From an uncultured Paracoccaceae bacterium (GTDB lineage: Bacteria; Pseudomonadota; Alphaproteobacteria; Rhodobacterales; Rhodobacteraceae), in NCBI GenBank assembly GCA_947495795.1, contig CANMAI010000005.1, forward strand, positions 62,001 to 126,000: a DNA stretch of 64,000 nucleotides, in the 5' to 3' direction. Within the stretch, counting starts at the first letter, position 1; every line of letters starts with the position of its first letter. The notes beneath the pieces were generated by a model. The model saw only the letters and a program-made list of their open reading frames with translations. It did no database searches and was not told the DNA's origin. A program made the translations under genes and the position numbers. Positions 3,301-45,547 of the stretch are shown in pieces.

Positions 3301-3361
3301 CGCGCAACGCTCCGCCGGCGGTTCCCGCCCACCCACCCCACCGCCGACCAAGCGTTGCGCG
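3301..3361. repeat. Hairpin repeat with G-quadruplex loop, copy 1
   Basis: Outer arms CGCGCAACGCT (3301-3311) and AGCGTTGCGCG (3351-3361) are perfect 11-bp complements. Inner arms CGGCGGT (3316-3322) and ACCGCCG (3340-3346) are perfect 7-bp complements. The 17-base loop TCCCGCCCACCCACCCC reads on the minus strand as GGGGTGGGTGGGCGGG, four G-runs with single-base linkers. It lies between the SRPBCC and SDR genes. Copies 2 and 3 are at 5371 and 45465. Confidence 0.85.
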
Positions 3362-3442
3362 ACGGAGGGGTGGATGAAGGGTTGCATGTTTCCCGGAATG
3401 GGAGAGAGTGTGCCTATCTGCCCTGAGCCGAGAGGTGCGCGT

Positions 3443-4186
3443 GTGTCTGACCCATCTAAGACGAGAACGCTTTTGCTGACAGGGGCGAGCCGCGGGATTG
3501 GGCATGCGACTGTGCGGAAGTTTGCCGCCGAGGGGTGGCGTGTGATCAGCTGCTCTCGACAGGCCTTTTCAGATGAGTGCCCCTGGCCGGGAGGGGAGCG
3601 GAACCACATTCAGGTGGATCTCGGCGATCCGAACCAGACGATGGGGGCGATTGACGAGATCAAGGCCCGGCTGGACGGTGGGCGGCTGGATGCTCTGGTG
3701 AACAATGCAGGTATTTCGCCGAAAGGCGATGGTGGGGCGCGGCTCTCCACCCTCGATACGGATTTGCGTGTATGGGGGCAGGTATTCCATGTGAACTTCT
3801 TTGCCTCTGTCGTGTTGGCACGGGGGCTGCGGCGGGAGCTTTCCGCGGCAAAGGGCGCCGTGGTGAACGTAACGTCGATTGCGGGTTCGCGCGTGCATCC
3901 CTTTGCGGGTGCTGCCTATGCGACATCGAAGGCGGCACTGGCCGCTTTGACCCGGGAAATGGCCCATGATTTCGGGCCTTTGGGCGTGCGCGTGAATGCG
4001 ATAGCGCCGGGCGAAGTGGAGACGAGTATTCTGAGCGAAGGGACGGACAAGATCGTGGCGGGGCTGCCGATGCGCAGGCTGGGGCAGCCGGAAGAGGTGG
4101 CGAGCGCGATCTACTTCCTCTGTTCGGATCAGAGTTCCTACGTGTCCGGGACGGAGATCGAGGTGAACGGAGCACAGCACGTTTGA
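3443..4186 (+). CDS. Short-chain dehydrogenase/reductase (SDR, FabG-like)
   Basis: 247 residues from the GTG at 3443, which has GAGAGG upstream; the longer open frame would read through the hairpin tail. Classical SDR motifs are all present: TGASRGIG for the cofactor, NNAG, the catalytic serine in NVTSIAGS, and the YATSK tyrosine/lysine pair. The end SSYVSGTEIEVNGAQHV is typical of FabG-like NAD(P)-dependent oxidoreductases. The substrate is unknown. It follows the ArsR-SRPBCC pair across a G4 hairpin, the same order as at 44523-46250. Confidence 0.88.
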   Translation: MSDPSKTRTLLLTGASRGIGHATVRKFAAEGWRVISCSRQAFSDECPWPGGERNHIQVDLGDPNQTMGAIDEIKARLDGGRLDALVNNAGISPKGDGGARLSTLDTDLRVWGQVFHVNFFASVVLARGLRRELSAAKGAVVNVTSIAGSRVHPFAGAAYATSKAALAALTREMAHDFGPLGVRVNAIAPGEVETSILSEGTDKIVAGLPMRRLGQPEEVASAIYFLCSDQSSYVSGTEIEVNGAQHV

Positions 4187-4188
4187 AC

Positions 4189-4203
4189 GCCAGCTGGGCT
4201 GGC
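4189..4203. terminator. Short stem-loop after SDR gene
   Basis: GCCAGC-TGG-GCTGGC is a perfect 6-bp stem beginning three bases after the SDR stop codon, in the gap between two convergent genes. There is no U-tract, so intrinsic termination is only a possibility. Confidence 0.35.
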
Positions 4204-4257
4204 ACCTTGGTCTCCAGGACAGGCGCAGCTGTCGGTCTCAAAGATGGCAGCCGGGCC

Positions 4258-4392
4258 TTAGTGCGGCACCGGCATCTCTTTCATCACCTCCGCACTCGGG
4301 TGTGAGTTTTGCACCGTGAGACGGGAGCCCTCTTCGAAGCGTGTGATTCGAGCCCAGGCAATTTTCAGGCTTTCAGTCCCGCGATTGAGGGC
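4258..4392 (-). other. 44-codon open stretch in frame behind the PhzF stop codon
   Basis: Immediately after the TGA of the PhzF gene the same frame stays open for 44 codons to a TAA at 4258-4260, with protein-like content (for example LKIAWARITRFEEGSRL). There is no ATG/GTG start and PhzF homologues normally end where this one does. It may be the tail of a decayed gene, a small gene with a non-standard start, or chance. Coding status is not established. Confidence 0.25.
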
Positions 4393-5271
4393 TCAGAGTG
4401 TAAGCGCGCCGGACATCAAGACAACGCCCTGGCCGCCGACCCGGACACCTGTAATGGCTTCGCGGGGGCCGAGAATTTCTATCTCTGCTTGTCCGGGGCG
4501 GCCTATTCCGTGGCCTTGGTCGGCTTTGTATTTCGGGTTTTCGATAAGGCCCTCATGCCAGAGATATGCGGCCATGCAGCCGTTTGCGGCACCGGTGAAT
4601 GGATCTTCTGCGGGCATGGGCGGGGCGAGGAGGAGGCGGGAGTATATATCGCCGGTGCCAGCGCCTTCGAGTACGGTCAGGAAGGGCTCCATCAGGCCGC
4701 CCTGTGGGCCTTGGCGTCCGCGCCATGCTTCGAGGAGCGACACGTTGAGTTTTGCTCCTTCAAGAGCCTCACGTGATTTGAGAACCGTACAGCAGAAGGG
4801 CGTTCCGGTAGAGACGATGCGGGGGATCCCGAGGATATCGGACTGCTGGAGGCCGTAGATTGCGGCGATCTCTGCCGGATCTTCCGGGGCGCCGATGGTT
4901 GGGGCTGCCTGGGTCATCGTAATGGTGGTACCGGTGAGCTCGATTGGCAGGATGCCAGCGCCAACTTCGAGAGTGAAGGTGGCGTGGCCGTTCCGGAGCG
5001 GGACGAGGCCCCGGTGGAGGAGGGATGCAACGGTTGCGATGGTCGGGTGGCCTGCCATCGGGATCTCGCGGGTGGCGAGGTAATAGCGGGCGCCGAAATC
5101 GGCAACCTCGGACGGTACGATATAGGCGCATTCGGAGAGGCTGGTTTCCTGCACGAGGGCGAGGCGCTGTTCTGTGCTGATGTCCTCCGCCTCATGGACA
5201 ACCACGCAGCCATTGCCGCCGAAAGGCGTGGTGGTGAAGGCGTCTATCCAGTCAAATTGGTATTGCGGCAT
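4393..5271 (-). CDS. PhzF family isomerase/epimerase-like protein
   Basis: 292 residues, the usual PhzF length. The N-terminus (DWIDAFTTTPFGGNGCVVV) and the catalytic glutamate region (TSLSECAYIV) match the first half of the diaminopimelate-epimerase fold; AEDPFTGAANG is the second-half signature. PhzF isomerises a phenazine precursor, but most chromosomal homologues have unknown substrates and no phenazine genes occur here. The start at 5269-5271 has AAAGGAG upstream. It diverges from the RidA gene, with G4 hairpin copy 2 between them. Confidence 0.88.
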   Translation of the reverse strand: MPQYQFDWIDAFTTTPFGGNGCVVVHEAEDISTEQRLALVQETSLSECAYIVPSEVADFGARYYLATREIPMAGHPTIATVASLLHRGLVPLRNGHATFTLEVGAGILPIELTGTTITMTQAAPTIGAPEDPAEIAAIYGLQQSDILGIPRIVSTGTPFCCTVLKSREALEGAKLNVSLLEAWRGRQGPQGGLMEPFLTVLEGAGTGDIYSRLLLAPPMPAEDPFTGAANGCMAAYLWHEGLIENPKYKADQGHGIGRPGQAEIEILGPREAITGVRVGGQGVVLMSGALTL

Positions 5272-5370
5272 GGTGGGCTCCTTTTGAAGAAGTTTCGGCG
5301 CGGTTGGACCGGGGAGCAAGTAGGGGCGCGATGATGTTTCTTGATATGAGATATCTTGTGGTGTGCGCCC

Positions 5371-5437
5371 CGCAGCACGCCCTTCGAAGGGCGGTTCCCA
5401 CCCACCCACCCCACCGCCCCCCGAAGGCCGTGCTGCG
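5371..5437. repeat. Hairpin repeat with G-quadruplex loop, copy 2
   Basis: Outer 16-bp arms at 5371-5386 and 5422-5437 (CGCAGCACGCCCTTCG against its complement, one mismatch). Inner arms are GGGCGGT (5389-5395) and ACCGCCC (5413-5419). The loop TCCCACCCACCCACCCC gives GGGGTGGGTGGGTGGG on the minus strand. The loop and inner stem nearly match copy 1, while the outer stem differs. It lies in the divergent region between the PhzF and RidA genes. Confidence 0.85.
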
Positions 5438-5504
5438 AGGCGGGTTGTGCGAGCAGGGGAAGTGTGGCGAGATTGGCCCGTGCTTTAGAACGGGGGAGAC
5501 AGGC

Positions 5505-5894
5505 ATGCCGGAGTTTCATATGATTGCGGGTGGTCCGCGCCCAGTGGCACCTTTCAGCCACGCGGTTGAGGCTGATGGCTGGGTGATGCTGACCGGACAG
5601 ATGCCGACCGATCCGGACGCCCCCGATGCGCCTTTGCCGGAGGGGATCGCAGCGCAGACGCGGCAGGTGATGGACAACCTTGCATTGATCCTTGCAGGCT
5701 TGGATCTCGATCTTTCGAATGTGGTGCAGTGCCGGTGTTATCTGACTGAATTTGAACAGGATTATGAGGCGTTTAACACGGCTTATCAGAGCTACTTTCC
5801 GGTGGCGCGGCGCCCTGCGCGCACGACGATTGGCGTGACGGCACTGGCAGTGGGCGCGCTGGTGGAGATCGACATGGTTGCGCGAAGGCCCTGA
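5505..5894 (+). CDS. RidA family protein (enamine/imine deaminase-like)
   Basis: 129 residues, typical RidA (YjgF/YER057c) length. The start at 5505 follows GGGGGAGA. Features seen are PVAPFSHAVEADGWVMLTGQ, the trimer-core helix RQVMDNLALILAGL, and the conserved arginine segment ARRPARTTIGVTAL. RidA proteins hydrolyse reactive 2-aminoacrylate-type enamines produced by PLP enzymes; this subgroup's substrate is unknown. It precedes sbtA by about 120 bp on the same strand. Confidence 0.88.
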   Translation: MPEFHMIAGGPRPVAPFSHAVEADGWVMLTGQMPTDPDAPDAPLPEGIAAQTRQVMDNLALILAGLDLDLSNVVQCRCYLTEFEQDYEAFNTAYQSYFPVARRPARTTIGVTALAVGALVEIDMVARRP

Positions 5895-6012
5895 CCTTCG
5901 TTTTTCGGGATTTTCGAGCCGCAAAAACAGGTGCTTAGCTTGTAAAGGCAGCGGTTGGAAATTAGTTAATATGAAATCGGTTGACACCTTATCGGGGGAC
6001 CATCCCTTGGAC

Positions 6013-6987
6013 ATGATCCTTTCGCTTGCGGCAACGAACCTGCTGTCGCCCATTATCCTTTGCTTTGTGCTGGGCGTAGTGGCGGCGCTGGCGCGATCCG
6101 ATCTCAGCTTTCCCGAGGCTGTGGCGAAAGGTATGTCACTTTATCTGCTGTTCGCCATCGGTTTCAAGGGCGGGGCGAGCATTGCCGATCATGGGGTGGA
6201 TGCGCGGCTTCTGGCGTCGCTGCTCGCGGGTGTTGTGCTTTCCGCCGGGTTGCCTTTTGTGGCCTTCGGATTGTTGAGGGTTGTTACCAAGCTTTCGGTG
6301 CTGGATGCGGCGGCAGTGGCAGCGCATTACGGCTCGATATCGATCGTTACGTTTGTGGCGGCGACCTCGATCCTGCAGGCGCAGGGGATTGCCTCGGAGG
6401 GATATATGGTGGCGGTGGCGGCTGCTATGGAGGCGCCCGCGATTGTTTCGGCACTCTGGCTCCTTTCGCGTACCGGATCTGATGCGCGCAGCATGGATAG
6501 CGCGTTGATGCGGGAGATTTTGCTGAACGGTTCGATTGTGCTTCTTGTCGGGTCCTTCGCGATTGGCTGGATCACCGGGAACGATGGCCTGCGTGAGATC
6601 GCGCCTTTCATTACCGCGCCGTTCAAGGGTGTGCTTTGCCTCTTTCTTCTCGATATGGGGCTGGTGGCTGGTCGGGGGCTTATGCGGGCAAAGGGTGTCA
6701 TTTCCGGCCGCGTGGTCCTGTTCGGATTGATGATGCCGCTGATTGGCGCGAGTGCAGGATTGTTGGCGGCGTCTCTGCTGGGGCTTTCGCTCGGTGGTAC
6801 GGTGCTCTTGATGACGCTGTCCGCCTCCGCCTCTTACATCGCTGTGCCGGCTGCCATGCGCGTTGCCCTGCCGGAGGCGAACCCGGCGGTTTACCTCACG
6901 CTTTCGCTCGGGATCACCTTCCCGTTCAACCTTGTTCTTGGCATCCCGCTTTACGTGGCGGTGGCCAGCGCCGTGATGGGAGGATGA
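6013..6987 (+). CDS. sbtA: SbtA-type sodium-dependent bicarbonate transporter
   Basis: 324 residues, about ten membrane helices, matching the SbtA (DUF897) family: LYLLFAIGFKGGASIADHG near the start, AAAVAAHYGSISIVTFVAA in the middle, and SYIAVPAAMRVALPEANPA near the end. SbtA imports bicarbonate with sodium in cyanobacterial carbon-concentrating mechanisms; homologues occur in non-autotrophs. The start is uncertain: ATG 6013, TTG 6007 (best spaced from GGGGGA at 5994) or ATG 5971. One base separates it from the PII-like gene, as in known sbtA-sbtB operons. Confidence 0.85.
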   Translation: MILSLAATNLLSPIILCFVLGVVAALARSDLSFPEAVAKGMSLYLLFAIGFKGGASIADHGVDARLLASLLAGVVLSAGLPFVAFGLLRVVTKLSVLDAAAVAAHYGSISIVTFVAATSILQAQGIASEGYMVAVAAAMEAPAIVSALWLLSRTGSDARSMDSALMREILLNGSIVLLVGSFAIGWITGNDGLREIAPFITAPFKGVLCLFLLDMGLVAGRGLMRAKGVISGRVVLFGLMMPLIGASAGLLAASLLGLSLGGTVLLMTLSASASYIAVPAAMRVALPEANPAVYLTLSLGITFPFNLVLGIPLYVAVASAVMGG

Positions 6988-6988
6988 C

Positions 6989-7300
6989 ATGAAGATGCAT
7001 GACGCCAAGCGGATCGAGATTATCATTGAGGCCATCATGGAGAGGCGGCTGACTGATATACTGATCGCCGCTGGTGTAACGGGCTTCAGTGTGTTGCCGG
7101 TAAAAGGCGGTTCCGGCCGGACGGGGCAGTGGAGCCGGGCGGGGCAGATCAGCCGGGCCGAGGGGATGGTGGCCGTGGTGTGCCTGATAAAACCGGAGCG
7201 GCTGGATATTCTGCTGGAAGCGATATTCCCGGTGCTGGATCGGCATATTGGAGTGGTCAACATCACCGATGCCAAGGTGCTGCGGGTGGAGATGTTCTGA
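6989..7300 (+). CDS. sbtB: PII-like protein SbtB
   Basis: 103 residues with the PII ferredoxin-like fold: the helix AKRIEIIIEAIMERRLTDIL, GVTGFSVLPVKGG leading into a glycine-rich T-loop (GGSGRTGQWSRAGQ), then MVAVVCLIKPERLDILLEAI. Cyanobacterial SbtB binds adenine nucleotides (including cAMP) and inhibits SbtA. The placement one base behind sbtA, with GGGAGGA as ribosome site, strongly supports the same partnership here. The canonical PII uridylylation tyrosine motif is not apparent. Confidence 0.85.
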   Translation: MKMHDAKRIEIIIEAIMERRLTDILIAAGVTGFSVLPVKGGSGRTGQWSRAGQISRAEGMVAVVCLIKPERLDILLEAIFPVLDRHIGVVNITDAKVLRVEMF

Positions 7301-7369
7301 CGCCTGCCCTTTACTTTTTGCGCCGCGCAGGCTTTTTGCCTGAGTAAGGGTAGGCAAGAAGGCAGCGTT

Positions 7370-8179
7370 TTGACAGAAAGTGTGAGTGTGCGGGCCGCGC
7401 CCGAGGGCTGGCGGCTCTGGCTGCTTGAATTCTGGTGGTTTGGGCTGCGCCAGGCCTGGGCCTGCCTCTTTGGCGGGATCATGCTGGCGCTGATTGTGGC
7501 GACGCATCTTGTCTGGCCCGATGATGCCGCGATGCATCGTTATGATTTCCTGTTTCTGGCAGCTTTGGGCATTCAGGCTGGGCTGCTCGCCACCGGGCTG
7601 GAAAGCTGGGAAGAGGCGCGGGTGATCCTGCTCTTCCACATCGTCGGTACGGCGATGGAGGTGTTCAAGACCGCAGCTGGCAGCTGGATCTACCCGGAGG
7701 AGGCGATTTTTCATATTGGCGCAGTGCCGCTTTTCTCGGGCTTCATGTATTCGGCAGTGGGGTCCTACCTCGCTCGCGTTTGGCGGTTGTTTGACTTTCG
7801 GTTCACACGGTATCCGCCTTTCTGGGCAACGGTGGTGGTGAGTGTGCTGGCCTATATCAACTTCTTTTCGCATCACTACATATGGGATTTTCGGTATGTT
7901 CTGATTGCAGCGACGCTCATGCTCTACGGCCCATGTTGGGTGCATTACACGCCAAAGAGGATGCGGTTGCGGATGCCTTTGGCGTTCGGATTTTTGCTGG
8001 TGGCACTGTTCATCTGGTTTGCGGAAAACATCGGGACATTTGCGGGGGCGTGGATCTATCCGAACCAGAAGGAGGGGTGGAGTTTGGTCAGTATCTCCAA
8101 GCTCGGCTCTTGGTATCTTCTGATGATCCTGAGCTTTGTGATGGTAAGTGCCGTGGCCAAGCCCGAAAGAGAGGCTTGA
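7370..8179 (+). CDS. DUF817 family integral membrane protein
   Basis: 269 residues with eight predicted membrane helices. Conserved DUF817 features are WWFGLRQAWACLFGG at the start, two AGSWIYPEE / GAWIYPNQ motifs, and ALIVATHLVWP. The function of the family is unknown. A TTG start at 7370 with AAGAAGG upstream is preferred; a GTG at 7382 is possible. It follows sbtB by about 70 bp on the same strand and precedes glnE by 31 bp, so it could be transcribed with either. Confidence 0.85.
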   Translation: MTESVSVRAAPEGWRLWLLEFWWFGLRQAWACLFGGIMLALIVATHLVWPDDAAMHRYDFLFLAALGIQAGLLATGLESWEEARVILLFHIVGTAMEVFKTAAGSWIYPEEAIFHIGAVPLFSGFMYSAVGSYLARVWRLFDFRFTRYPPFWATVVVSVLAYINFFSHHYIWDFRYVLIAATLMLYGPCWVHYTPKRMRLRMPLAFGFLLVALFIWFAENIGTFAGAWIYPNQKEGWSLVSISKLGSWYLLMILSFVMVSAVAKPEREA

Positions 8180-8210
8180 CGGAGCCCGAGAAGCGACCAC
8201 CCTTGGTGCC

Positions 8211-10979
8211 ATGAAATTTCTCGATAGTATCCATAGCTATCCCTTGCCCTTTCAGGAGGCACCTGCCGCCGAAATGCGTGCGCGCTATCGGGATAGCGGC
8301 GTGTTTGCGGAGCTTGCAGCGGGAGTGGCTGGGTGTAGCCCCTACCTTGGCAATTTGCTCACGCGGGAAGAGGAATGGCTGCGAGAGGGGTTTGCGCTTT
8401 CGCCGGATGAAGGATTTGCTCGCTGCTTTGAGGGTGAGGAGGGTGTCGCCTTGCCTGCGACCCTGCGCCGGAGCAAGGGGCGGGCAGCGCTTTGGGCCGG
8501 ATTGGCGGATCTGGGCGGCATGTGGCCGCTGGAGGCTGTGACCGGGGCTTTGACCTCTCTTGCCGATTGGTCCGTGGGGGCTGCCATGGCCGAGCTTGTG
8601 GCGCAGGAGCGCGCACGGAGGAAACTGCCGGAGTGTGAAGCACCTTGTGGTGGGCTCTTTGCCCTGTCTATGGGCAAGATGGGCGCGGGAGAGTTGAACT
8701 ATTCTTCCGATATTGATCTCATTCTTCTCTTCGATGAGGCGCTTTATCCGGCGGAGGATTATTCCTCTGTGCGTTCGGCATTTATCCGGGTGGGCCAGAA
8801 GCTGGTGCGCATACTCTCAGACGTGACGGAGGGGGGGTATGTGTTCCGCACCGATCTGCGGCTGCGTCCCAATCCTTCGGTGACGCCCGTGGTGATCGGG
8901 ATGGGTGCTGCGGAGCGCTACTATGAGGCCGAGGGGCGCGGGTGGGAGCGTGCGGCGATGATCAAGGCGCGGGTATGTGCCGGGGATATCGACGCGGGGG
9001 AGCGTTTTCTGGACGATCTTGTGCCCTTTGTCTGGCGGCGGCATCTGGATTTTGCGGCCATTGAGGATGCGCATGCAATGCGGTTGCGTATTCGCGAACA
9101 CAAGGGGCTGGCTGGGCGGTTCAGCTTGCCCGGGCACAATGTTAAGCTGGGGCGGGGCGGCATTCGGGAGATCGAGTTTTTTGCGCAGACGCATCAGCTG
9201 ATCCTGGGTGGGAGGAACCCGGAGCTGCGGTGCCGAGAGACGAAACCCGCTTTGGCGGCTTTGGCTGCGGGTGGCTGGGTGCCGGAGGATCTGGCCGTGG
9301 AGCTCGCGGAGGCTTACACCGCGCACCGCGCGCTGGAGCATCGGTTGCAGATGCTGGAAGATGCGCAGACACATTCTTACCCGGAGAGCAGCGAGGCGCG
9401 GGTGCGGTTGGCGCGGTTCTGCGGTGCGGCGGATGAGGCGGCTTTCGAGGCAGGTGAGGCGGAGCGCTTTTTGCGGGTGCATGCTGCGATGGAGGGGTTC
9501 TTTACGCCGGATGCCGAGGGTGCACCGGACTGGGAGGGTTTTGCGGATCGGGAGACTGCAATGGCACGGGTGGAGAGTTGGCAAAGCCTGCCCGCGCTGC
9601 GTTCGGACCGGGCGCGGGGGATCTTCCGGCGGTTGGAGCCCAAAATTGCAGCGCGGCTTTCCACCGCCCAGATGCCGGATGAGGCGCTTGTGCAATTTGA
9701 TAGGTTTTTGAGAGGTTTGCCCGCGGGTGTTCAAGTGTTTTCTCTCTTTGAAGCCAATTCTGAACTGCTGGATTTGCTGGTTGAGATTTGCGCGGTGGCG
9801 CCTCGGCTTGCGGGATATCTCGGGCGGCATGCCGGTGTGCTGGACGCTGTGCTCTCGCCCGATTTCTTTGAGCCTTTGCCCGCTTGCGAAGTGCTGACCG
9901 CGCGGCTTTCGCAGGCCCTGGCGAAGGTGGATGATTATGAGCGGGCGCTGGATCATGTGCGCCGATGGGTGCGGGAACGGCATTTTCGGGTGGGTGTGCA
10001 GGCTTTGCGCGGGATTGCCACGCAGGATGCTGCCGCGCTCGATTATGCGGATTTGGCGGAGGCTGCCTTGCGTGCGCTGTTGCCCGTGGTGGTTGATGAG
10101 TTTGCGCGGCGGTTCGGGCCGCCACCGGGGGCGGGGTTGGCCGTGTTGGCGATGGGTAAGCTTGGCAGCCGGGACATGACGGCGGCTTCCGATCTGGATT
10201 TGATCGTGATCTACGACGCGGCGGGTGTGGAGGCCTCGGAAGGGCCGAAATCGCAGGCATCATCTGTTTACTACGCGCGACTGACAAAGGCCTTTCTCTC
10301 TGCCTTGACAGTGCCGACGGCGGAGGGCGGGCTGTACGAGGTGGATATGCGGCTTCGCCCATCCGGACGACAGGGGCCGGTGGCGACGGGGCTTTCAAGT
10401 TTTGCCACCTATCAGCGCGAGGAGGCCTGGACCTGGGAGCACCTGGCGTTGACGCGGGCACGGGTGGTTGCGGTGAGTGACGCAGACCTTGAGGCCCGCG
10501 TGATGGCGGCCGTGACGGATGGACTGGCGGCGGCAAGACCGCGTGACGTGGTCATGGCCGATGTGCGCGATATGCGGGCACGGCTTTTGGAGGCGAAGGG
10601 ACCCGGCAGCGCCTGGGAGGTGAAGGCAGGACCGGGGCGCTTGCTGGATATGGATCTCTATCTTCAGGCTGGCGCCTTGGTGACCGAATTGCGCGAGGTT
10701 GTGGCACCGAGGGAGATGATCGCGGGGCTTGAGGCGTCAGGTTTTCTCAGTGCTGTGGATGCCACTGTGATCTCGGAAGCCTATATGGTGTTTTCCACCG
10801 TGCAGCATCTGGCGCGTGTGGCTTTGGACGGGGCGTTGGTGCCCGAAGAACTGGGGGCAGGGTTCGCCGAGGTTTTGTGCAGTGCTTTGGGAGAGAAGGA
10901 TCTGGCGGCCGTGGAGGCACGGCTGGTATCAGATGCGTGTGCTGTTGCCGCGGTGATTGACGCCGGCGTGGGTGCGTGA
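8211..10979 (+). CDS. glnE: Bifunctional glutamine synthetase adenylyltransferase/deadenylylase
   Basis: 922 residues. GlnE controls glutamine synthetase by attaching and removing AMP in response to PII status. Two nucleotidyltransferase domains are visible: the N-terminal deadenylylase with GKMGAGELNYSSDIDLIL (about residues 154-170) and the C-terminal adenylyltransferase with MGKLGSRDMTAASDLDLIV (about 647-665), each with its DxD metal pair. PII-uridylyltransferase-linked linker regions lie between. The start MKFLDSIHSYPLPF at 8211 was chosen over an in-frame start inside the upstream gene. Confidence 0.95.
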   Translation: MKFLDSIHSYPLPFQEAPAAEMRARYRDSGVFAELAAGVAGCSPYLGNLLTREEEWLREGFALSPDEGFARCFEGEEGVALPATLRRSKGRAALWAGLADLGGMWPLEAVTGALTSLADWSVGAAMAELVAQERARRKLPECEAPCGGLFALSMGKMGAGELNYSSDIDLILLFDEALYPAEDYSSVRSAFIRVGQKLVRILSDVTEGGYVFRTDLRLRPNPSVTPVVIGMGAAERYYEAEGRGWERAAMIKARVCAGDIDAGERFLDDLVPFVWRRHLDFAAIEDAHAMRLRIREHKGLAGRFSLPGHNVKLGRGGIREIEFFAQTHQLILGGRNPELRCRETKPALAALAAGGWVPEDLAVELAEAYTAHRALEHRLQMLEDAQTHSYPESSEARVRLARFCGAADEAAFEAGEAERFLRVHAAMEGFFTPDAEGAPDWEGFADRETAMARVESWQSLPALRSDRARGIFRRLEPKIAARLSTAQMPDEALVQFDRFLRGLPAGVQVFSLFEANSELLDLLVEICAVAPRLAGYLGRHAGVLDAVLSPDFFEPLPACEVLTARLSQALAKVDDYERALDHVRRWVRERHFRVGVQALRGIATQDAAALDYADLAEAALRALLPVVVDEFARRFGPPPGAGLAVLAMGKLGSRDMTAASDLDLIVIYDAAGVEASEGPKSQASSVYYARLTKAFLSALTVPTAEGGLYEVDMRLRPSGRQGPVATGLSSFATYQREEAWTWEHLALTRARVVAVSDADLEARVMAAVTDGLAAARPRDVVMADVRDMRARLLEAKGPGSAWEVKAGPGRLLDMDLYLQAGALVTELREVVAPREMIAGLEASGFLSAVDATVISEAYMVFSTVQHLARVALDGALVPEELGAGFAEVLCSALGEKDLAAVEARLVSDACAVAAVIDAGVGA

Positions 10980-11030
10980 TGTGTGTTTGGACGGTGGGTT
11001 GCACTAACCCTACCACCTGGGGTTAAGCGT

Positions 11031-11936
11031 GTGGCGCTTCCGATTGTATACCATCCGGACTATATGGCTCCGCTGAAGCCCGGGCACCGTTTTCCGATGT
11101 CGAAATACGGATATCTGCGCGAGACCCTGATTGCTGAGGGGCTTTTGCCGGAGGTGGGCGGCTATCTGGCACCGGCGCCTGCACGGTTTGCCGAGATCGC
11201 CGCAGTGCATGCGCCTGACTATGTGGACCGTGTGTTCACGCAGACGCGGAGTGCAGCCGAGACGCGGGCCATCGGGTTGCCCGACACGGAGCGGGTGGCA
11301 CGCCGTGCGCGGCTATCGGCGGCCGGGACGACGCTGGCCGCGCGGTTGGCGCTGGAATACGGGGTTGCGTGCAATGCGGCAGGCGGAAGCCACCATGCGG
11401 GGCCCTTGGGCGGGGCTGGGTTTTGCGTGTTCAACGATGTGGCGGTGGCGGCGCGTGCCTTGCTGGATGCAGGGCAGGTGGCGCGCATTCTGATCGTGGA
11501 TCTTGATGTCCATCAGGGCGACGGTACCGCCCGCATCTTTGCAGAAACGCCTGCCGTTTTCACTTTTTCGGTTCATGCGGAGAGAAATTACCCTGAGGAG
11601 AAGGCCGTATCCGACTGGGATATCGGGCTGGCGGATGGCATCGAAGACGGGGAATATCTGGCCGTTTTGCGGGAGGCATTGCCAAAGGTACTGGCGCTGA
11701 ACCGGCCGGATATCGTGTTCTACAATGGGGGAGTGGACCCTCATGCAGCGGACAGGCTTGGGCGTTTGTGCCTTAGCGACGAAGGGATCTCGGCGCGGGA
11801 TGCGCTGGTGTTCTCCACCACGCGGGCCGCCGGAATTCCGGTTGTCGGCGTGCTGGGTGGGGGATATGACGCAGATATTGTTGCTCTTGGCGCGCGCCAC
11901 GCGCGGATGTTTGCGGCGGCGGCGGAATGGATGTGA
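11031..11936 (+). CDS. Histone deacetylase-like zinc amidohydrolase
   Basis: 301 residues, single HDAC/arginase-fold domain of the bacterial class IV-like type. Visible are the substrate loop HPDYMAPLKPGHRFPMSKY, the catalytic histidine pair in GGSHHAGPLGGAGFCVFND (about residue 120), the zinc aspartate/histidine DLDVHQGDGT (about 157), and the late GVDPHAADRLG loop. Such enzymes deacetylate polyamines, acetoin-like or other acetylated small molecules in bacteria; the substrate is unknown. GTG 11031 is taken as start, with a GGGG stretch upstream. It is followed closely by a small conserved gene. Confidence 0.9.
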   Translation: MALPIVYHPDYMAPLKPGHRFPMSKYGYLRETLIAEGLLPEVGGYLAPAPARFAEIAAVHAPDYVDRVFTQTRSAAETRAIGLPDTERVARRARLSAAGTTLAARLALEYGVACNAAGGSHHAGPLGGAGFCVFNDVAVAARALLDAGQVARILIVDLDVHQGDGTARIFAETPAVFTFSVHAERNYPEEKAVSDWDIGLADGIEDGEYLAVLREALPKVLALNRPDIVFYNGGVDPHAADRLGRLCLSDEGISARDALVFSTTRAAGIPVVGVLGGGYDADIVALGARHARMFAAAAEWM

Positions 11937-11952
11937 GGTGATGCGATGAGCG

Positions 11953-38485: not shown

Positions 38486-39009
38486 GCGACACCGCCCATT
38501 CTGCCCCGCTCCGCCTCGGGTGCGCGGATGCGGAGGACGCCGTAGAGCGTGAAGGCTATGAGCGGGTAGAGGCCGGTGGTGATTGCATACTGGAAGAGCA
38601 TCCGGCCTGCCGGCGGGTTGGGCACGAGGGAAAGCGAGAGGATGAGCGACTGGAGGAGGAGCATGAGGCCGAAGAGAATGGCGAAGGTGACCCATTCGAA
38701 GAGGAAGGGCCTGTCGTGATGGCCGCGGGACTGGATGCGCAGGAATTCGGTGGCCATCAGGACCATGAAGCACCAGAGGCCGGGCGGGCGGGAGAGGATG
38801 AAATCGGCCATGAGGAAGATCGCGACGATCAGCAGCACGGGCGTGCTGTCTGGCCGACGGAGCACCCAGGCGGCGGTGAGGGCGAAGAGGAGGTCGGGCC
38901 AGATGAGCGCATCGGCCTGCAGTTCCAGCGGGAGAAGCTGGAGGAGGATAAGGAGGGTGGTAAGGCCGAGGAACATCAGCGATTTGAGGAGCGGGGAGTT
39001 GGCCTTCAT
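38482..39009 (-). CDS. mreD: Rod-shape-determining protein MreD
   Basis: 175 residues, five to six membrane helices and little else (LGLTTLLILLQLLPLEL, LIWPDLLFALTAAWVL, RPPGLWCFMVLMATEFL). The WPDLLF and ATEFLRIQ stretches match MreD, which joins MreC and MreB in the membrane part of the elongation complex. It overlaps mreC and mrdA by 4 bp each, consistent with a single polycistronic transcript. Confidence 0.9.
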   Translation of the reverse strand: MKANSPLLKSLMFLGLTTLLILLQLLPLELQADALIWPDLLFALTAAWVLRRPDSTPVLLIVAIFLMADFILSRPPGLWCFMVLMATEFLRIQSRGHHDRPFLFEWVTFAILFGLMLLLQSLILSLSLVPNPPAGRMLFQYAITTGLYPLIAFTLYGVLRIRAPEAERGRMGGVA

Positions 39010-39926
39010 TGCGAGGCCCCCTCTGTGGCACGGCTTTCCTCGATGGTTTCCAGCGCATCGCCCGGCAGGGCCGGGCCGATCAGCTCTCCGGGGCCCACGA
39101 TCTGCTCCGAAGGGGCCTGACGGAGCACGCGGATAAATTCCAGCCTGCGGTAATCGGCGGCGAGGCGGACGCGGAGCCTGCCATCTGGGCCGGTGGCGAC
39201 GGTGCCGATCAGGATATCGGCCGGGAAGAGGCCGCCATCGCCCGAGGTCATCACGCGGTCTCCGGGGCGGACTTCCTCGATGCTTTCGATGAAATCGAGG
39301 ACGGGCGCGTTGGTATTGTCGCCCGAGACAAGGGCGCGTTGGCCGGAATCGGGGAGGATGGAGGGCACTTTGGAGTTGATGTCCGTCAACAGGATCACGC
39401 GGCTTGTGGTATCGCCGACACCTGAGATGCGACCGACGAGGCCGAGACCGTCGACCGTGGCGGAGCCATCCTGCACACCGTCGATGCGGCCTATGTTGAG
39501 GAGGCCGGACTGGCGGAAGGGGCTGCCGCTATCTGCGATCACCTCTCCGGCCACAAAGCGCAGGCGGGGGGAGAGGCGGACGTTGTTGAGCGCGCGGAGG
39601 CGGGCGTTTTTCTCCTCCAACTGGAGGGCCGCCTCGCGCCAGCCTTTCATACGCTGTAATTCGCGGCGCAGTTCGCGGTTTTGCGCATACACCTCTTCCA
39701 GCGTCTGATAGTCGCTGATCATCCGGTTGATCGAGGTGAGCGGGTTGAGCGACCACTCGATATTGGGCACGACGCGATCCAGAATGGCGATGCGCAGGGT
39801 TTCCACGCGCGGGTTATCTATCCGCCAGAGGAGGAAAAGGGCGAGCAGGAAAACCGAGACCCCGGTGATCAGGATCCGGCGGATCGTGCGCCACATTGCA
39901 GAGACTTCATTGTCGCCCGTTGCCAC
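39006..39926 (-). CDS. mreC: Rod-shape-determining protein MreC
   Basis: 306 residues. One N-terminal membrane helix (ILITGVSVFLLALFLLW), a coiled coil (about 70-115, QNRELRRELQRMKGWREAAL), then the beta-rich periplasmic domain (FVAGEVIADSGSPFRQSGLL, GLVGRISGVGDTTSRVILL, DILIGTVATG). MreC scaffolds PBP2 and the MreB filaments. A GTG start at 39926 has GAGGG upstream; ATG 39896 is the alternative. It overlaps mreD by 4 bp and follows mreB by 31 bp. Confidence 0.94.
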   Translation of the reverse strand: MATGDNEVSAMWRTIRRILITGVSVFLLALFLLWRIDNPRVETLRIAILDRVVPNIEWSLNPLTSINRMISDYQTLEEVYAQNRELRRELQRMKGWREAALQLEEKNARLRALNNVRLSPRLRFVAGEVIADSGSPFRQSGLLNIGRIDGVQDGSATVDGLGLVGRISGVGDTTSRVILLTDINSKVPSILPDSGQRALVSGDNTNAPVLDFIESIEEVRPGDRVMTSGDGGLFPADILIGTVATGPDGRLRVRLAADYRRLEFIRVLRQAPSEQIVGPGELIGPALPGDALETIEESRATEGASQ

Positions 39927-39957
39927 GCTTGCCCTCGTTTACGCGCTGCCGCTCTGG

Positions 39958-41169
<1,212 letters not shown>

Positions 41170-41248
41170 TTAAGGTGAATTTGACTTGTTCTCTACAACA
41201 CTGGCGGCTAACCACGCGCTTGAAATTTCACGTTCGGAGACGTCCTCT

Positions 41249-42031
41249 ATGACAGCTGCGCCGGTTCCCTTCATCGTTCTCGGGACGATCCGCTCGGGCT
41301 CGTACAATCTGGTGAGCCTGCTGGATTCCGCGCCTGACCTTGTGTGCTACGGAGAAGTTTACAAGCAGCGATATGTGGAACTTCCCGAGCCTGCGCTGAA
41401 GACCCTGGGACTGACGCGGATGGATACTGGGAAGCGCGATGCGCTTGGAGGTGAGCTGGTCGGTGCCCTGCGTGATCTCAATCCGCACCAGTCTACTGGT
41501 TTCAAGCTTTTTCCCGGTCACCTTAAAGGCCGCCCGTTCCTGCGCAAGATGATGTTCTCGGGGCGCTTTCGGATGGTTCTGCTGACGAGGCCTTTGCTTG
41601 AGATCCTTGTCTCTTTCCTTATTGCGGAGAAGACCGGGAAATACACCTCGCAACCAGAAGCCCTGCCGGAGGACCATCAGGTTGGGGTGACGGAGGAAGA
41701 TATCGTCGCAGCGGAGGGCTTCATTCAGAGGCATCGCAAGATATGCCGAGAGTTAAGGACCGCCGCAGGAGTTGAGGTTTTCGATATCAGCTACAAGGGT
41801 ACGCAGAACCCTGACATGCTGCAGAAACTGCTGGAGTTTCTCGGTTCTGACGCTGATGCGAGCAACCTCAAGACATCGTTTAGCAAGCAATCGAGCTCTG
41901 AACTGCATGAGCGCGTCGAAAACTGGGAGGCGCTGGCAGCGCTTCTGACAAGGACTGACCGGGTGAGCTATCTTGAGGCTGCAGGATATGACAGTTCGGG
42001 CGCCCTTATTGGCTCTGAGTGTCATCTCTGA
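41249..42031 (+). CDS. Sulfotransferase-like protein
   Basis: 260 residues. FIVLGTIRSGSYNLVSLL near the start is the 5'-phosphosulfate-binding loop type (RSGSxxL) of sulfotransferases, and RFRMVLLTRPLLEILVSFLI corresponds to the 3'-phosphate region. It is related to the loosely defined bacterial sulfotransferase family that modifies polysaccharides or lipids; the acceptor is unknown. ATG 41249 follows GGAGA; the longer frame lacks support. It converges on leuA across a hairpin. Confidence 0.7.
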   Translation: MTAAPVPFIVLGTIRSGSYNLVSLLDSAPDLVCYGEVYKQRYVELPEPALKTLGLTRMDTGKRDALGGELVGALRDLNPHQSTGFKLFPGHLKGRPFLRKMMFSGRFRMVLLTRPLLEILVSFLIAEKTGKYTSQPEALPEDHQVGVTEEDIVAAEGFIQRHRKICRELRTAAGVEVFDISYKGTQNPDMLQKLLEFLGSDADASNLKTSFSKQSSSELHERVENWEALAALLTRTDRVSYLEAAGYDSSGALIGSECHL

Positions 42032-42035
42032 AAGC

Positions 42036-42064
42036 GTCTGCAGGCTCCGGAGAGGCCTGCAGAC
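42036..42064. terminator. Bidirectional hairpin between sulfotransferase gene and leuA
   Basis: GTCTGCAGGC (42036-42045) pairs perfectly with GCCTGCAGAC (42055-42064) around a 9-base loop, filling the 40-bp gap between two convergent stop codons. Either strand lacks a U-tract. Confidence 0.55.
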
Positions 42065-42071
42065 CAGTGCC

Positions 42072-43613
42072 TTAGGAGGTCATCGCTGCGGGCGCTGACT
42101 TTTCGCGCCGGACGATGAGCTTGTTGAGTGCGTTGACATAGGCTTTTGCGGAGGCGACCACGGTATCGGTCTCCGATGCCTGACCGGTGACGATCTTGCC
42201 GCCTTCTTCCATCCGCACGGTTACGGTGGCCTGGGCATCAGTGCCTTCTGTGACGGCATGGACCTGATAGAGCGCCAGTTCCGCCTCATGCGGGAAGAGG
42301 CGGGTGATGGCGTTGAAGGTTGCATCGACCGGGCCATCGCCCTGTGCCGTCACCTGATGATCCTGTCCGTCGATGGTGAGCGTGAGATCCGCGCTTTGCG
42401 GGGCTTCGGTGCCGCAGATCACCCGCAGGAATTTCACCTTGATCGTATCGTGCCCGGCGCTGGTGGTGCTGTCGGCCATCATCGCAAGAAGGTCGTCATC
42501 GTAGATTTCCTTCTTGCGATCTGCCAGAGCCTTGAATCGGACGAAGACATCGTTGAGCTGATTGTCGCCAAGCTGGAAGCCGAGCGCTTCGAGTTTGGAG
42601 CGGAGGGCGGCGCGGCCGGAATGCTTGCCCATGACGAGATTGCTTTCGGTAAGGCCGACATCTTCGGGCGCCATGATCTCGAATGTGCCCGCGTGTTTCA
42701 GCATGCCGTCCTGATGGATGCCGCTTTCGTGTGCGAAGGCGTTCTTGCCGACGATGGCCTTGTTGTACTGAACGGCGAAGCCCGAGACATGCGCGACGCG
42801 GCGGGAGATCTGCATGATCTTGGTGGTGTCGATGCCGGTATCAAAGGGCATGATATCGTGGCGGACTTTCATGGCCATCACGACCTCTTCGAGCGCGGTG
42901 TTGCCCGCCCGTTCGCCGAGGCCGTTGATGGTGCATTCGATCTGGCGGGCACCTGCCTCTACGGCGGCAAGGCTGTTGGCCGTCGCCATTCCAAGATCGT
43001 TGTGGCAATGCGTGGCGATTGTGATTTCGTCCATGCCCGGCACGCGTTCGAGCAGCATCCGGATGATGTCCGCGCTTTCGCGGGGGGCGGTGTAGCCGAC
43101 GGTATCGGGGATGTTGATTGTGGTGGCACCTGCCTTGATCGCAATCTCGCAGACGCGGGCGAGGTAATCATCCTCGGTGCGGGTTGCGTCCATCGGGCTC
43201 CATTGCACGTTGTCGCAGAGGTTGCGGGCGTGGGTGACAGTGGCGTGGATCTTATCGGCCATCGCTTCCTTATCGAGCTTTACCTGAAACTCGCGGTGAA
43301 GCGGTGAGGTGCCGATGAAGGTGTGGATGCGGGGGCGCTTGGCGTGTTTGACTGCCTCCCAGCAGCGGTCAATATCGCCGAAGCTGGCACGGGAGAGGCC
43401 GCAGATGACGGCGTTTTGGGTTTGGGCAGCGATCTTGCTGACGGCCTCGAAATCGCCGTCGGAGGCGATCGGGAAGCCCGCTTCTATGATATCGACGCCC
43501 ATCTCATCGAGGAGCTGGGCGATTTCCAGCTTTTCGGTGAGGGTCATCGTGGCGCCGGGGCTTTGCTCTCCGTCGCGCAAGGTGGTGTCGAATATCTGCA
43601 CTCTGTTGGTCAT
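42072..43613 (-). CDS. leuA: 2-isopropylmalate synthase
   Basis: 513 residues, the usual LeuA length. First committed step of leucine synthesis: acetyl-CoA plus 2-oxoisovalerate. The HMGL-type barrel has DTTLRDGEQSPGATM (metal aspartate), TINIPDTVGYTAPRE, and the HxH metal pair in IATHCHNDLGMATAN. The C-terminal LeuA regulatory dimerisation domain (about 390-510) includes ALYQVHAVTEGTDAQATV and gives leucine feedback. It lies 34 bp downstream of an RNA-ligase-like gene on the same strand. Confidence 0.96.
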   Translation of the reverse strand: MTNRVQIFDTTLRDGEQSPGATMTLTEKLEIAQLLDEMGVDIIEAGFPIASDGDFEAVSKIAAQTQNAVICGLSRASFGDIDRCWEAVKHAKRPRIHTFIGTSPLHREFQVKLDKEAMADKIHATVTHARNLCDNVQWSPMDATRTEDDYLARVCEIAIKAGATTINIPDTVGYTAPRESADIIRMLLERVPGMDEITIATHCHNDLGMATANSLAAVEAGARQIECTINGLGERAGNTALEEVVMAMKVRHDIMPFDTGIDTTKIMQISRRVAHVSGFAVQYNKAIVGKNAFAHESGIHQDGMLKHAGTFEIMAPEDVGLTESNLVMGKHSGRAALRSKLEALGFQLGDNQLNDVFVRFKALADRKKEIYDDDLLAMMADSTTSAGHDTIKVKFLRVICGTEAPQSADLTLTIDGQDHQVTAQGDGPVDATFNAITRLFPHEAELALYQVHAVTEGTDAQATVTVRMEEGGKIVTGQASETDTVVASAKAYVNALNKLIVRREKSAPAAMTS

Positions 43614-43647
43614 TGTCTTGTCCTCTGAATGTCTTTGGGAGGGAGGC

Positions 43648-44187
43648 CTATTTGAAGCCGAAATCCCGCCGTTTGATTTTTGCCATGCGCCCGTCTGGGT
43701 GATGGAAGACGATCCCTTCGCCGACCAGGCTTTCCAGAAAATCCCGCAGCCCTTCGAAATCGCGGGGACAATCCTCGAACTGCTCCGCTTTTGCGTGAGC
43801 CACCATGGTGTGGGCTTCGGCTTTTTCCGGATTTCCCTGAACCTTTGGGCCGATCAGCTCATAAGTGCCGGGCTTTGGATCGGTTACGCTGGCGATCCCT
43901 TCGAGATGCCATTTATCCGTGGGCTCGACCGGCATCCAGCCGACCGACTTCCCCGTAACAGGATCCTCCGCTGCGAGGGTGAAGCCGGGCGGAAGGGCAG
44001 CACCGGGCTTGATCTCGCGCCGTTTCCACCAGGTTATGCCGTCGAACATTGTGCAGGTGCCGTCATATTTGCGGGTCGCGGTGCCTTCGCTCGCGAGTAC
44101 CCAGAGACAATCGGGGTGCGGAGTGTTGAGAACACGGGAAGGATTACCTTCAAAATCGCGGTTGAAGACTGTGGGTGTCTTTCTCAT
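43648..44187 (-). CDS. RNA-ligase-family protein (DUF5565/HsRnl C12orf29-like)
   Basis: 179 residues. The nucleotidyltransferase motifs are in order: motif I TRKYDGTCTMF with lysine 40 as the expected AMP acceptor, then WWKRREIKPGAALPPGF, motif III GTYELIGPKVQGNPE, motif IV GEGIVFHHPDGR, and motif V MAKIKRRDFGF. This set matches the small 5'-3' RNA ligases related to human C12orf29. It probably adenylylates itself with ATP and joins RNA ends; the biological substrate is unknown. ATG 44187 is 34 bp upstream of leuA. Confidence 0.8.
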   Translation of the reverse strand: MRKTPTVFNRDFEGNPSRVLNTPHPDCLWVLASEGTATRKYDGTCTMFDGITWWKRREIKPGAALPPGFTLAAEDPVTGKSVGWMPVEPTDKWHLEGIASVTDPKPGTYELIGPKVQGNPEKAEAHTMVAHAKAEQFEDCPRDFEGLRDFLESLVGEGIVFHHPDGRMAKIKRRDFGFK

Positions 44188-44263
44188 CTCATCGCTCCCG
44201 CCGCTTCTGATGTGCGCGGCGCGATGATTGATACCGTTTAAGAAGTGTCATGGAGTTGTGCCT

Positions 44264-44389
44264 TGTTCAGCATTTCAGATTATCCGTTGGGCTTTTCGGT
44301 GCGGCGCGTTTCCCCTGAGCGGGCGCACCGGAACCGGCACGCTCAGGGGCGTGTAAGGAGGAGGCCGGAAAGGAGATCTGTGCTGAACA
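44264..44389. other. Structured intergenic element, possible regulatory RNA
   Basis: TGTTCAGCA (44264-44272) pairs with TGCTGAACA (44381-44389), bracketing the element. Inside, CCCCTGAGCG (44312-44321) pairs with CGCTCAGGGG (44340-44349), and CGGTGCG (44297-44303) pairs with CGCACCG (44324-44330) located in that loop. The interleaved order allows a pseudoknot or two alternative folds. It lies 77 bp upstream of the RNA-ligase gene (minus) and 130 bp upstream of an ArsR gene (plus). It does not match a riboswitch known to me. Confidence 0.4.
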
Positions 44390-44475
44390 TAGCGCTTTAT
44401 ATACCGGGGGGTTGTGGGGGTGGCCAAGAGAAAAGCGCTGTTTTGGGTGAAAAAAGCTTGATATGAAACTATAAG

Positions 44476-44494
44476 GTTTCTATTTAATAGAAAC
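44476..44494. promoter_or_regulatory. Perfect palindrome upstream of second ArsR gene (likely operator)
   Basis: GTTTCTATT and AATAGAAAC are perfect 9-bp arms with a single-base spacer, 28 bp before the ArsR start. An outer ATATGA/TCATAT pair (44461-44466, 44504-44509) adds symmetry. This is a likely autoregulatory site for the adjacent regulator. Confidence 0.6.
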
Positions 44495-44522
44495 TAAATG
44501 GTATCATATGGAGGTAGATACG

Positions 44523-44849
44523 ATGATGAACGCTGGCGAGGGTGCATTTCGCGCTCTGGCAGATCCGACGCGGCGGGCGATTCTCTCGCTTCTGGCGGAG
44601 GAGGACATGACGATTGGGCGGGTTGCGGAGAATTTCGCGATGACGCGCCCGGCGATCAAGAAGCATCTGGGCATTCTGGAGGAGGGCCAGTTGATCCGCG
44701 TGGAAGCGCGGGGGCGGGAGCGGGTGAACCGCTTCAATCCCGAAGGGCTGCGCGCAGTGACGGGATGGTTGGGAGAGCTGGACCGGTTCTGGAACCTGCG
44801 GCTGGACCGCCTGAAAGCAGAAATTGAAAGGGATATGAAAGATGAGTGA
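44523..44849 (+). CDS. ArsR-family regulator, second SRPBCC-associated copy
   Basis: 108 residues from ATG 44523, which has GGAGGT seven bases upstream; ATG 44508 overlaps that site and is unlikely. GAFRALADPTRRAILSLLAE, MTIGRVAENFAMTRPAIKKH and the wing LIRVEARGRERVNRFNPEG are characteristic. No metal-binding cysteines. The SRPBCC gene overlaps by 8 bp. Same layout as the pair at 2491-3292. Confidence 0.88.
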   Translation: MMNAGEGAFRALADPTRRAILSLLAEEDMTIGRVAENFAMTRPAIKKHLGILEEGQLIRVEARGRERVNRFNPEGLRAVTGWLGELDRFWNLRLDRLKAEIERDMKDE

Positions 44850-45276
44850 TGTGATGGAAATGGGCGTGGATGTACCGCTGGTGAAAACGGTATTCATCTC
44901 GGCCCCGCGGGAGAAGGTGTGGGCTTATCTAACGGAGAAGGAGTATCTCGGCCGCTGGTGGCAGGATGCGGCGGCGGATCTCAAGCCGGACTCGGAATAT
45001 ACCTTGCTTGACAGCAAGGGGGACCGGCTGGTTTGGGGGCGTGTGGTGGCGTGGGAGCATCCTGCGAAACTGGTGACGACGTTCGAGATCGGGATGCTGC
45101 AGGGCAAGGAGACGACCGTGACATGGGAACTGGCAGCCGTGCCGGGTGGCACGCGCTTGCGCGTGACCCACGCGGGGATCATGGCGGAAGGCGGGCCGGA
45201 AGTGCCTGTGTTCGGCGGACTGGATGCCGGTTGGGACAAGCACTTCATGACACTGCGGGAGCTGGCCAGCGGCTGA
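44842..45276 (+). CDS. SRPBCC (AHSA1-like) domain protein, second copy
   Basis: 144 residues. One SRPBCC domain: KTVFISAPREKVWAYLTEKE, YLGRWWQDAAADLKPDSEYT, VVAWEHPAKLVTTFEIG, and GWDKHFMTLRELA at the C-terminus. Predicted to bind a hydrophobic ligand. ATG 44842 lies inside the ArsR coding end, giving coupling. Sequence is only loosely like the copy at 2825, so this is a parallel arrangement, not a recent duplicate. Confidence 0.86.
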   Translation: MSDVMEMGVDVPLVKTVFISAPREKVWAYLTEKEYLGRWWQDAAADLKPDSEYTLLDSKGDRLVWGRVVAWEHPAKLVTTFEIGMLQGKETTVTWELAAVPGGTRLRVTHAGIMAEGGPEVPVFGGLDAGWDKHFMTLRELASG

Positions 45277-45464
45277 GCGGCTCCGGTGCGCCCTTGAGGC
45301 GCACCGGGTTTCATTTTCGGAGAGCGCCCGGTTTATTGCTCTGCGAACGCGACCGCAGAATAGCCGGGCGGATATTGGCACAACTGCAGGGTCGGTGATG
45401 TCTTTCCGGTTCCGGAAACTCTGGTGGAGATCCGGAGCACGCGGGAATGGCATTGCGCACAAAC

Positions 45465-45547
45465 CCGTCCAGCCCGGCGCATCCTTTTCGCGGCAGCGCC
45501 CACCCGCCCGCCCCGCTGCCGCGAAAAGGATGCGCCGGGCTGGACGG
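45465..45547. repeat. Hairpin repeat with G-quadruplex loop, copy 3 (34-bp perfect stem)
   Basis: Arms at 45465-45498 and 45514-45547 are perfectly complementary over 34 bp (outer ends CCGTCCAGCCCGGC and GCCGGGCTGGACGG). The 15-base loop CCCACCCGCCCGCCC gives GGGCGGGCGGGTGGG on the minus strand, again four G-runs with single-base linkers. The stem sequence differs from copies 1 and 2, while the loop design is shared. It lies between SRPBCC and SDR genes, as copy 1 does. Confidence 0.9.

Follow-up and report, generated by a model that had tools for sequence, protein, structure and literature searches.

Long hairpins whose loop carries a predicted G-quadruplex (G4) motif recur in the genome of an uncultured Paracoccaceae bacterium (Rhodobacteraceae; GenBank assembly GCA_947495795.1). 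We started from a stretch of 64,000 nucleotides of contig CANMAI010000005.1 (C5:62001-126000), called here the window, in which positions are counted from the first nucleotide. The analysis extends to the whole genome of the bacterium (4.84 Mb in 55 contigs, the own genome in what follows) and to genomes of its relatives; where needed, genomes, contigs, and loci are designated by G, C, and L numbers, G000 being the own genome. The hairpins form a family of extragenic palindromes with a fixed loop, a mostly free stem, and, in most copy-rich genomes examined, an orientation that follows GC skew. We tentatively favor the view that they are structural repeats of gene 3' ends, resembling repetitive extragenic palindromes (REPs), with a polarity set by replication.

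Three copies lie in the window, each intergenic in our reading of the genes and each with its G-rich strand on the minus strand. They are the top three entries in the inverted-repeat list of the window. Copy 1 (3293..3369) begins immediately 3' of the TAG stop codon of a plus-strand gene encoding an AHSA1-domain protein (2834..3292, start taken from our gene script). Its arms (3293-3322 and 3340-3369, 30 positions) are 83% complementary, and the loop motif at 3324-3338 is followed by a C at 3339. Copy 2 (L010, 5366..5442) has arms at 5366-5395 and 5413-5442 that are 87% complementary, with the motif at 5397-5411 and a C at 5412. It is one of two copies in the own genome that are placed between divergent genes; the gene to its left (4393..5271, minus strand) reads away from it, has homologues at 50-66% identity in many Rhodobacteraceae, and is presumably of the PhzF type. 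Copy 3 (45465..45547) has the perfect 34-bp stem described in a first-pass annotation (arms 45465-45498 and 45514-45547, 100% complementary) around a motif at 45499-45513, and is followed by a plus-strand short-chain dehydrogenase gene (45577..46250, start placed by eye; Pfam adh_short was matched on the longer reading frame). On the minus strand, the sequences are GGGGTGGGTGGGCGGG for copy 1, GGGGTGGGTGGGTGGG for copy 2, and GGGGCGGGCGGGTGGG for copy 3. All three hairpins are present where the first-pass annotation had placed them, and so are the sequences it gave, apart from a missing first G in its copy 3. For one protein encoded in the window, the closest named relatives are from Rhodobacteraceae (Pseudoruegeria, Albimonas, and Actibacterium), with an identity of about 65%.

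These elements are not chance runs of C, an explanation rejected on the basis of shuffled sequences, a loop-blind hairpin search, and covariance-model scores in the window. The motif alone, with up to one mismatch and overlaps counted, had 8 matches in the window versus 2.1 expected, and none of 100 shuffles reached 8. Folding z-scores of the three copies ranged from -4 to -10. A covariance model gave them 58-71 bits on the minus strand (58.3, 61.2, and 70.8 for copies 1 to 3), scores that are high by construction since the model was built from these copies and 31 others; elsewhere in the window, apart from the opposite strands of the same copies, no score exceeded 12.2 bits. A known RNA family was also rejected, as Rfam had no match in the window at the gathering score and a permissive search of copies 1 and 2 found nothing at the hairpins.

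Exact matches to the motif CCC-N-CCC-N-CCC-N-CCC number 34 in the own genome, all in the loop of a long hairpin. The base following the motif is C in every one of them, so that the G-strand reads GGGG-N-GGG-N-GGG-N-GGG. The G-runs of the loop are invariant, and the spacers, examined in 130 hairpins from several genomes, are pyrimidines on the G-strand (purines on the C-strand) at 383 of 390 positions and never C on the C-strand. Such pyrimidine spacers are what a G4 would favor. The fixed loop can therefore be written GGGG-Y-GGG-Y-GGG-Y-GGG on one strand, and is predicted to form a very compact three-tetrad G-quadruplex; judged by its letters, it fits the usual definition of four runs of at least three G separated by short loops. 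A search for long inverted repeats that ignored the loop, in 462,235 bases of the own genome, found 16, of which 12 carry the G4-motif loop, and thereby regained 12 of the 14 motif copies known in this part. One first-order Markov sequence as long as a contig, used as a control, contained no long hairpin. Two long hairpins with other loops were also seen in the own genome (G000:C8:216108 and G000:C6:183300). Relatives additionally contain motif matches without a stem, e.g., L038, L039, and L043, which were excluded from the hairpin counts, and long poly-C runs (L065-L069 in G001 and G007), several of them at or near contig ends. The first-pass annotation had named a lack of genome-wide excess and a loop not conserved across strains as grounds for doubt; the excess is large, and the loop is kept in other genera. 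The original observation is thus real and much larger than first noted.

In contrast to the loop, the stem is mostly free. It is about 17-34 bp long per unit, and in the own copies, between 17 and 30 of the 30 loop-proximal positions are paired, with pairing ending near position 30. Own stems compared pairwise (561 pairs) have a median identity of 0.41, with six pairs at 0.70 or above and the most similar pair, L004 and L005, at 0.88. In an ungapped alignment of 55 columns, 82.9% of the cells are paired versus 49.6% in shuffles, and the covariation score is 0.802 versus 0.214; when the partner is slid by 1-3 columns, pairing falls to 39-51%. A covariance model built from the 34 copies regains all of them plus four more at E values up to 1, one at E = 0.85; the model-only copies (C3:142382, C9:240124, C7:266187, and C12:154271) are kept outside the 34. 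It had been proposed that a conserved loop with a free stem points to selection for a fold rather than for a sequence. Pairing and covariation bear this out in part; the stems, however, are not wholly free, and template-switch correction of the arms could be an alternative source of the preserved pairing.

The distribution of mismatches bears on that alternative. Of the 34 own copies, 31-32 passed the stem-score cut of the scripts used for stem composition and mismatches. In 31 of these, mismatches occupy 76 of 434 cells in the 14 positions next to the loop and 12 of 310 cells at positions 15-24. In relatives, where the median arm is 17-25 bp, they are again found towards the tip, and the base is tight. 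At mismatched base pairs, G is on the G-strand 199 times and on the C-strand 23 times. In the own genome, the bias is confined to the inner 14 bp, where it takes in G.A and G.G, and is absent from the outer stem (10 versus 7). Together these counts indicate a tip that is G-rich on the quadruplex strand and not merely tolerant of wobble pairs; the inner bias may reflect no more than extra G beside the quadruplex. The use of A.C mismatches as proof that the G-strand folds was dropped, the bias being limited to the inner 14 bp and including G.A and G.G.

One explanation of these stems is that replication writes the palindromes: the polymerase stalls at a strong G4 on the leading-strand template, and the nascent strand folds back and takes a previously synthesized part of itself as template. 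The loop would then be constant and the stem a perfect inverted copy of the flank, with free stems and polarity following without any function. Stems are mostly locus-specific and often perfect, and mismatches are distributed as if the outer stem were rewritten after priming in the inner one, a loose tip and tight base also being seen in the shorter-armed relatives. On the other hand, the loose tip could come from a demand for G beside the quadruplex, and selection explains the covariation equally well. Moreover, the weak stem consensus and the one pair of 88% identical stems with unrelated flanks imply that a stem can travel with its loop, stalling alone would not require a fixed loop length, and the restriction to one bacterial family and the position at gene 3' ends demand extra assumptions. 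We consider this explanation unlikely. Its stronger form, in which the leading-template G-quadruplex is a programmed stall by which replication makes or renews the palindromes, the loop being inherited and the stem mostly written locally, would account for mostly free stems, perfect outer arms, and polarity at once; we regard it as rather improbable.

Outside the own genome, the family is patchy. A family-wide search found matches in 38 of 149 genomes, the own genome included. In a class-wide draw of 190 genomes, a few of them from the same family and with stricter filters, only the own genome matched. Within the genomes searched, the hairpin family was found only in Rhodobacteraceae. Among named genomes, Albimonas pacifica has 34 copies, A. 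donghaensis 15, Cochlodiniinecator piscidefendens 2, and Seohaeicola saemankumensis 1, and ten others had no match; 14 of the 34 matches in A. pacifica and 13 of the 15 in A. donghaensis were fetched as loci. Some neighborhoods recur. Around what we take to be the bet (betaine) operon, hairpins occur in five genera: they follow betB in three and betC in two, with both positions occupied in one genome, and precede betA in one. They also occur next to a presumed agmatinase-like gene in three genera; the stems differ in both neighborhoods. A literature search found no title or opening of an abstract that describes such a family; this is weak evidence of absence, since preprints were outside its coverage and subscription papers only sparsely included.

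Patchy copy numbers (0, 1, or tens in relatives) would suit a selfish miniature element of the IS200/IS605 type or REP-like, mobilized in trans and inserting into the single-stranded lagging template near gene ends. An orientation bias is expected of insertion into a single-stranded template. There are also signs of copying. In G063, seven identical 51-bp units (L194-L200) are located at unrelated sites, each directly followed by a second hairpin with a unique stem. In G096, six hairpins (L185, L186, and L188-L191) are within a dispersed repeat of several hundred bases, L186 only partly. In the own genome, the 88% identical stems of L004 (G000:C1:343256) and L005 (G000:C1:772022) have unrelated flanks. 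What speaks against such an element is that the Y1 transposase (PF01797) is absent from the own genome and present in only 1 of 10 genomes tested, that no other pair of own stems is more than 75% identical, and that some neighborhoods are common to several genera. The mobile repeat suggested in the first-pass annotation finds partial support in the identical G063 copies and the L004/L005 pair, and lacks a Y1 transposase in the own genome; we think a selfish element possible but doubtful. In G063, loci L194-L202 constitute a hairpin subfamily, and two more copies, in L166 and L171, had no second hairpin in the scan. Nothing in the analysis points to a recombination site, another role that had been suggested.

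The position of the hairpins relative to genes is more uniform. Genes were called with our own codon-usage script, and copy 2 was corrected by hand from codirectional (++) to divergent. Read along the C-strand, the script gave 13 own copies in ++, 11 in +-, 9 in --, and 1 in -+ contexts; after the correction, ++ is 12 and -+ is 2. The background, 198 intergenic regions of at least 60 bases in 398 kb from two contigs, comprises 60 ++, 53 --, 52 -+, and 33 +- regions. Divergent contexts are therefore avoided (2 of 34 copies, one of them by hand correction, versus 52 of 198 regions, p = 0.008), and 32 of 34 copies are convergent or codirectional versus 146 of 198 regions. With the arm taken as 31 nt, the stem starts within 17 nt of the stop codon of a C-strand gene in 15 of 34 own copies, and lies within 35 nt of a stop codon on either strand in 26 of 34. 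No common function was found among ten neighboring genes tested, which included genes for a deaminase, a corrin methylase, MgtE, AAA, adenylosuccinate synthetase, MatE, FG-GAP, AHSA1, and short-chain dehydrogenase proteins, and one without a match.

Such placement would be expected if the hairpins were ordinary intrinsic (Rho-independent) terminators that happen to have an odd loop, in a genome rich in GC. Intergenic stem-loops in general favor convergent regions and the first 50 bp 3' of a stop codon, as the hairpins do in being close to stop codons and avoiding divergent pairs (PMC1590033). Some stems in relatives, e.g., in G122, are terminator-like, and termination has been proposed for hairpins that lack a T-tract (PMC8355165). 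However, TTT occurs within the first 6 nt 3' of the stem in only 4 of 130 hairpins read on the C-strand, for which reason a T-tract terminator was rejected; AAA before the stem, on the G-strand side, is likewise found in 4 of 130. Stem and loop far exceed the usual 4-14 bp and 5-10 nt, as these are given in PMC8355165. Copies are also present inside the bet operon, and an orientation that follows GC skew is not expected of terminators. The family is not a canonical terminator, and an ordinary terminator with an odd loop is in our view very unlikely. A transcription roadblock, one of the roles suggested in the first-pass annotation, would be compatible with the location at gene 3' ends.

Of the 34 own copies, 33 carry the C-rich loop on whichever strand has a positive local GC skew; L006 is the exception, and at L027, one of the 33, the skew is almost zero (0.010). 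The five copies on contig C1 switch orientation at two points, where the skew changes sign as well. Among the 39 copies listed of 41 matches in G096, orientation is uniform within each contig: the C-loop is on the plus strand in 26 (C1 and C7) and on the minus strand in 13 (C8, C9, and C10). Skew in 20-kb samples of this genome is positive over the hairpin-bearing parts of C1 and C7, apart from a value near zero at C1:20k; on C9, and in the one sample from C8, it is negative. The C10 copy agrees by local skew, as do 14 of the 15 loci read locally. Agreement was also found in low-copy relatives (18 of 19, two of which, including the exception, are within 0.004 of zero; L109 and L110, model hits with no exact motif in a good stem, were left out), in G122 (6 of 6), in G078 (5 of 5, leaving out L184), in G020 (7 of 8 loci), and in A. 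donghaensis (11 of 13); G022:C14:31230 was left out as well. Orientation tracks GC skew in six of the eight copy-rich genomes examined. Gene orientation was rejected as the cause of polarity in the own genome, where, after correction, 12 codirectional copies are with the C-strand and 9 against it. In G096 C1, no hairpin is among the matches listed between about 0.9 and 1.7 Mb, with skew positive to about 1.35 Mb, and copies may thin out towards the terminus.

Positive GC skew usually marks the leading strand. If so here, the G-strand would serve as template for leading-strand synthesis and the C-strand as template for lagging-strand synthesis. A replication link, also among the roles suggested in the first-pass annotation, is thus supported by skew polarity, with the reservations that the polarity is absent in some genomes and that the link is known only through GC skew; rRNA, sought as a marker of replication direction, had no match in any of three genomes. 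KOPS and Chi-type sites are G-rich octamers on the leading strand. By GC skew, the G-rich strand of the hairpins is instead on the lagging strand, and a KOPS-like role was rejected since GGGNAGGG is not enriched in the window. This sequence occurs there 7 times versus 14 expected, with 6 occurrences on the plus strand and 1 on the minus strand. Placing the G-strand of (G3T)8 on the lagging template raised its mutation 5- to 174-fold in plasmids of Escherichia coli (PMC10530614). Read through GC skew, the polarity of the hairpins appears to match the more stable orientation of (G3T)8 in the plasmid assays described there.

Ordinary repeats or transcription stop signals do not explain the combination of free stems, a fixed loop, and one-way polarity. 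A family that is REP-like without belonging to the REP families considered, is no canonical terminator, and has the polarity seen in E. coli plasmids leads us to prefer, still tentatively, a structural 3'-end repeat filtered by replication. The hairpin would be located in transcripts from either side, near gene 3' ends as REPs are. It may act at transcription ends or in operon punctuation, by protecting the 3' end, pausing, or insulating transcripts of either direction, since it occupies such sites irrespective of gene direction. Replication would impose the polarity: the (G3Y)4 palindrome would fold and be deleted when its G-strand is the lagging-strand template, so that mainly copies with the G-strand on the leading template would persist.

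Several observations weigh against this interpretation. No polarity is seen in G063 or A. pacifica, where the C-loop is on the positive-skew strand in 8 of 15 and 9 of 15 copies, respectively, and local skew is weak; at L156 of G096, local skew is negative and a nearby 20-kb sample positive. In five relatives, 17 codirectional copies are with the C-strand and 7 against it, hence gene direction may contribute there. As the mismatch bias is, in the own genome, confined to the inner stem, it is no proof of which strand folds further out. The similarity of L004 and L005 suggests copying of whole hairpins. Turnover is high: among 10 orthologues of the VWA gene neighboring L016, none has a hairpin downstream and one has a hairpin upstream, and only 3 of 13 A. 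donghaensis loci have neighbors in common with the 14 A. pacifica loci compared. Position at 3' ends is by itself ordinary among intergenic stem-loops, as far as these are described in PMC1590033. Finally, a (G4T)4 dimer in E. coli showed 4-fold more mutation with the G-strand on the leading template (PMC10530614).

The hairpins provide a natural, genome-wide series of combined hairpin and predicted G4 motifs whose orientation to GC skew is nearly constant, and make up the majority of long inverted repeats in the searched part of the genome. Their hosts are marine-type bacteria, including some cultured species. This opens two questions to direct tests: does replication determine the strand on which a quadruplex is allowed, and does selection maintain long palindromes or template switching rewrite them?

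Among known systems, the pilE G4 of Neisseria is similar in being a compact G3 quadruplex of similar sequence with an orientation-dependent effect; it differs in being a single recombination site and not a family of free-stem hairpins. REPs and the bacterial interspersed mosaic elements (BIMEs) that contain them (GTAG and CGTC families) are likewise dispersed intergenic palindromes, mainly between unidirectional or convergent genes and patchy among species (PMC3733652). As described there, the stem of a REP is conserved and bears a GTAG or CGTC tag, and a RAYT transposase is often associated, whereas here the loop is conserved and the stem mostly free; the available part of that source does not mention replication polarity, and the hairpins follow skew. 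The hairpins share the extragenic convergent or codirectional placement and have neither a conserved tagged stem nor a RAYT; no tags were seen by eye in column counts, with no dedicated tag search. RAYT-driven REPs were rejected for the scarcity of Y1 transposases given above. Lacking a conserved stem of that kind and, in the own genome, a Y1 transposase, the hairpin family is not a member of the REP families considered.

The intrastrand-triplex repeats PIT/TMECO, with 23 units in E. coli MG1655, are also dispersed, G/C-rich, structured intergenic units with no transposase beside them (PMC4666352). Their stems are more conserved than their loops, they have no strand bias, and they are more often upstream of genes; the hairpins are the reverse on all three counts, and have neither the conserved stem with variable loops nor the lack of strand bias. 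G4 heptad repeats of Xanthomonas and Nostoc resemble the hairpins in being at most about 50 bp away from stop codons and rare between divergent genes (PMC4692102); in what that report offers, they are tandem and not described as hairpins, and those of Xanthomonas have no preference for the leading or lagging strand. General intergenic stem-loops share the placement, and the available portion of PMC1590033 mentions neither a shared loop motif nor replication polarity. The nasT quadruplex of Paracoccus denitrificans is a different sequence (PMC5123632). In the Quadrupia collection, bacterial G4 motifs are, as here, unequally distributed between the replicating strands, and are generally enriched on the leading strand (PMC12581993). 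The hairpin family contradicts this trend, its G4 motif being, by GC skew, on the lagging strand.

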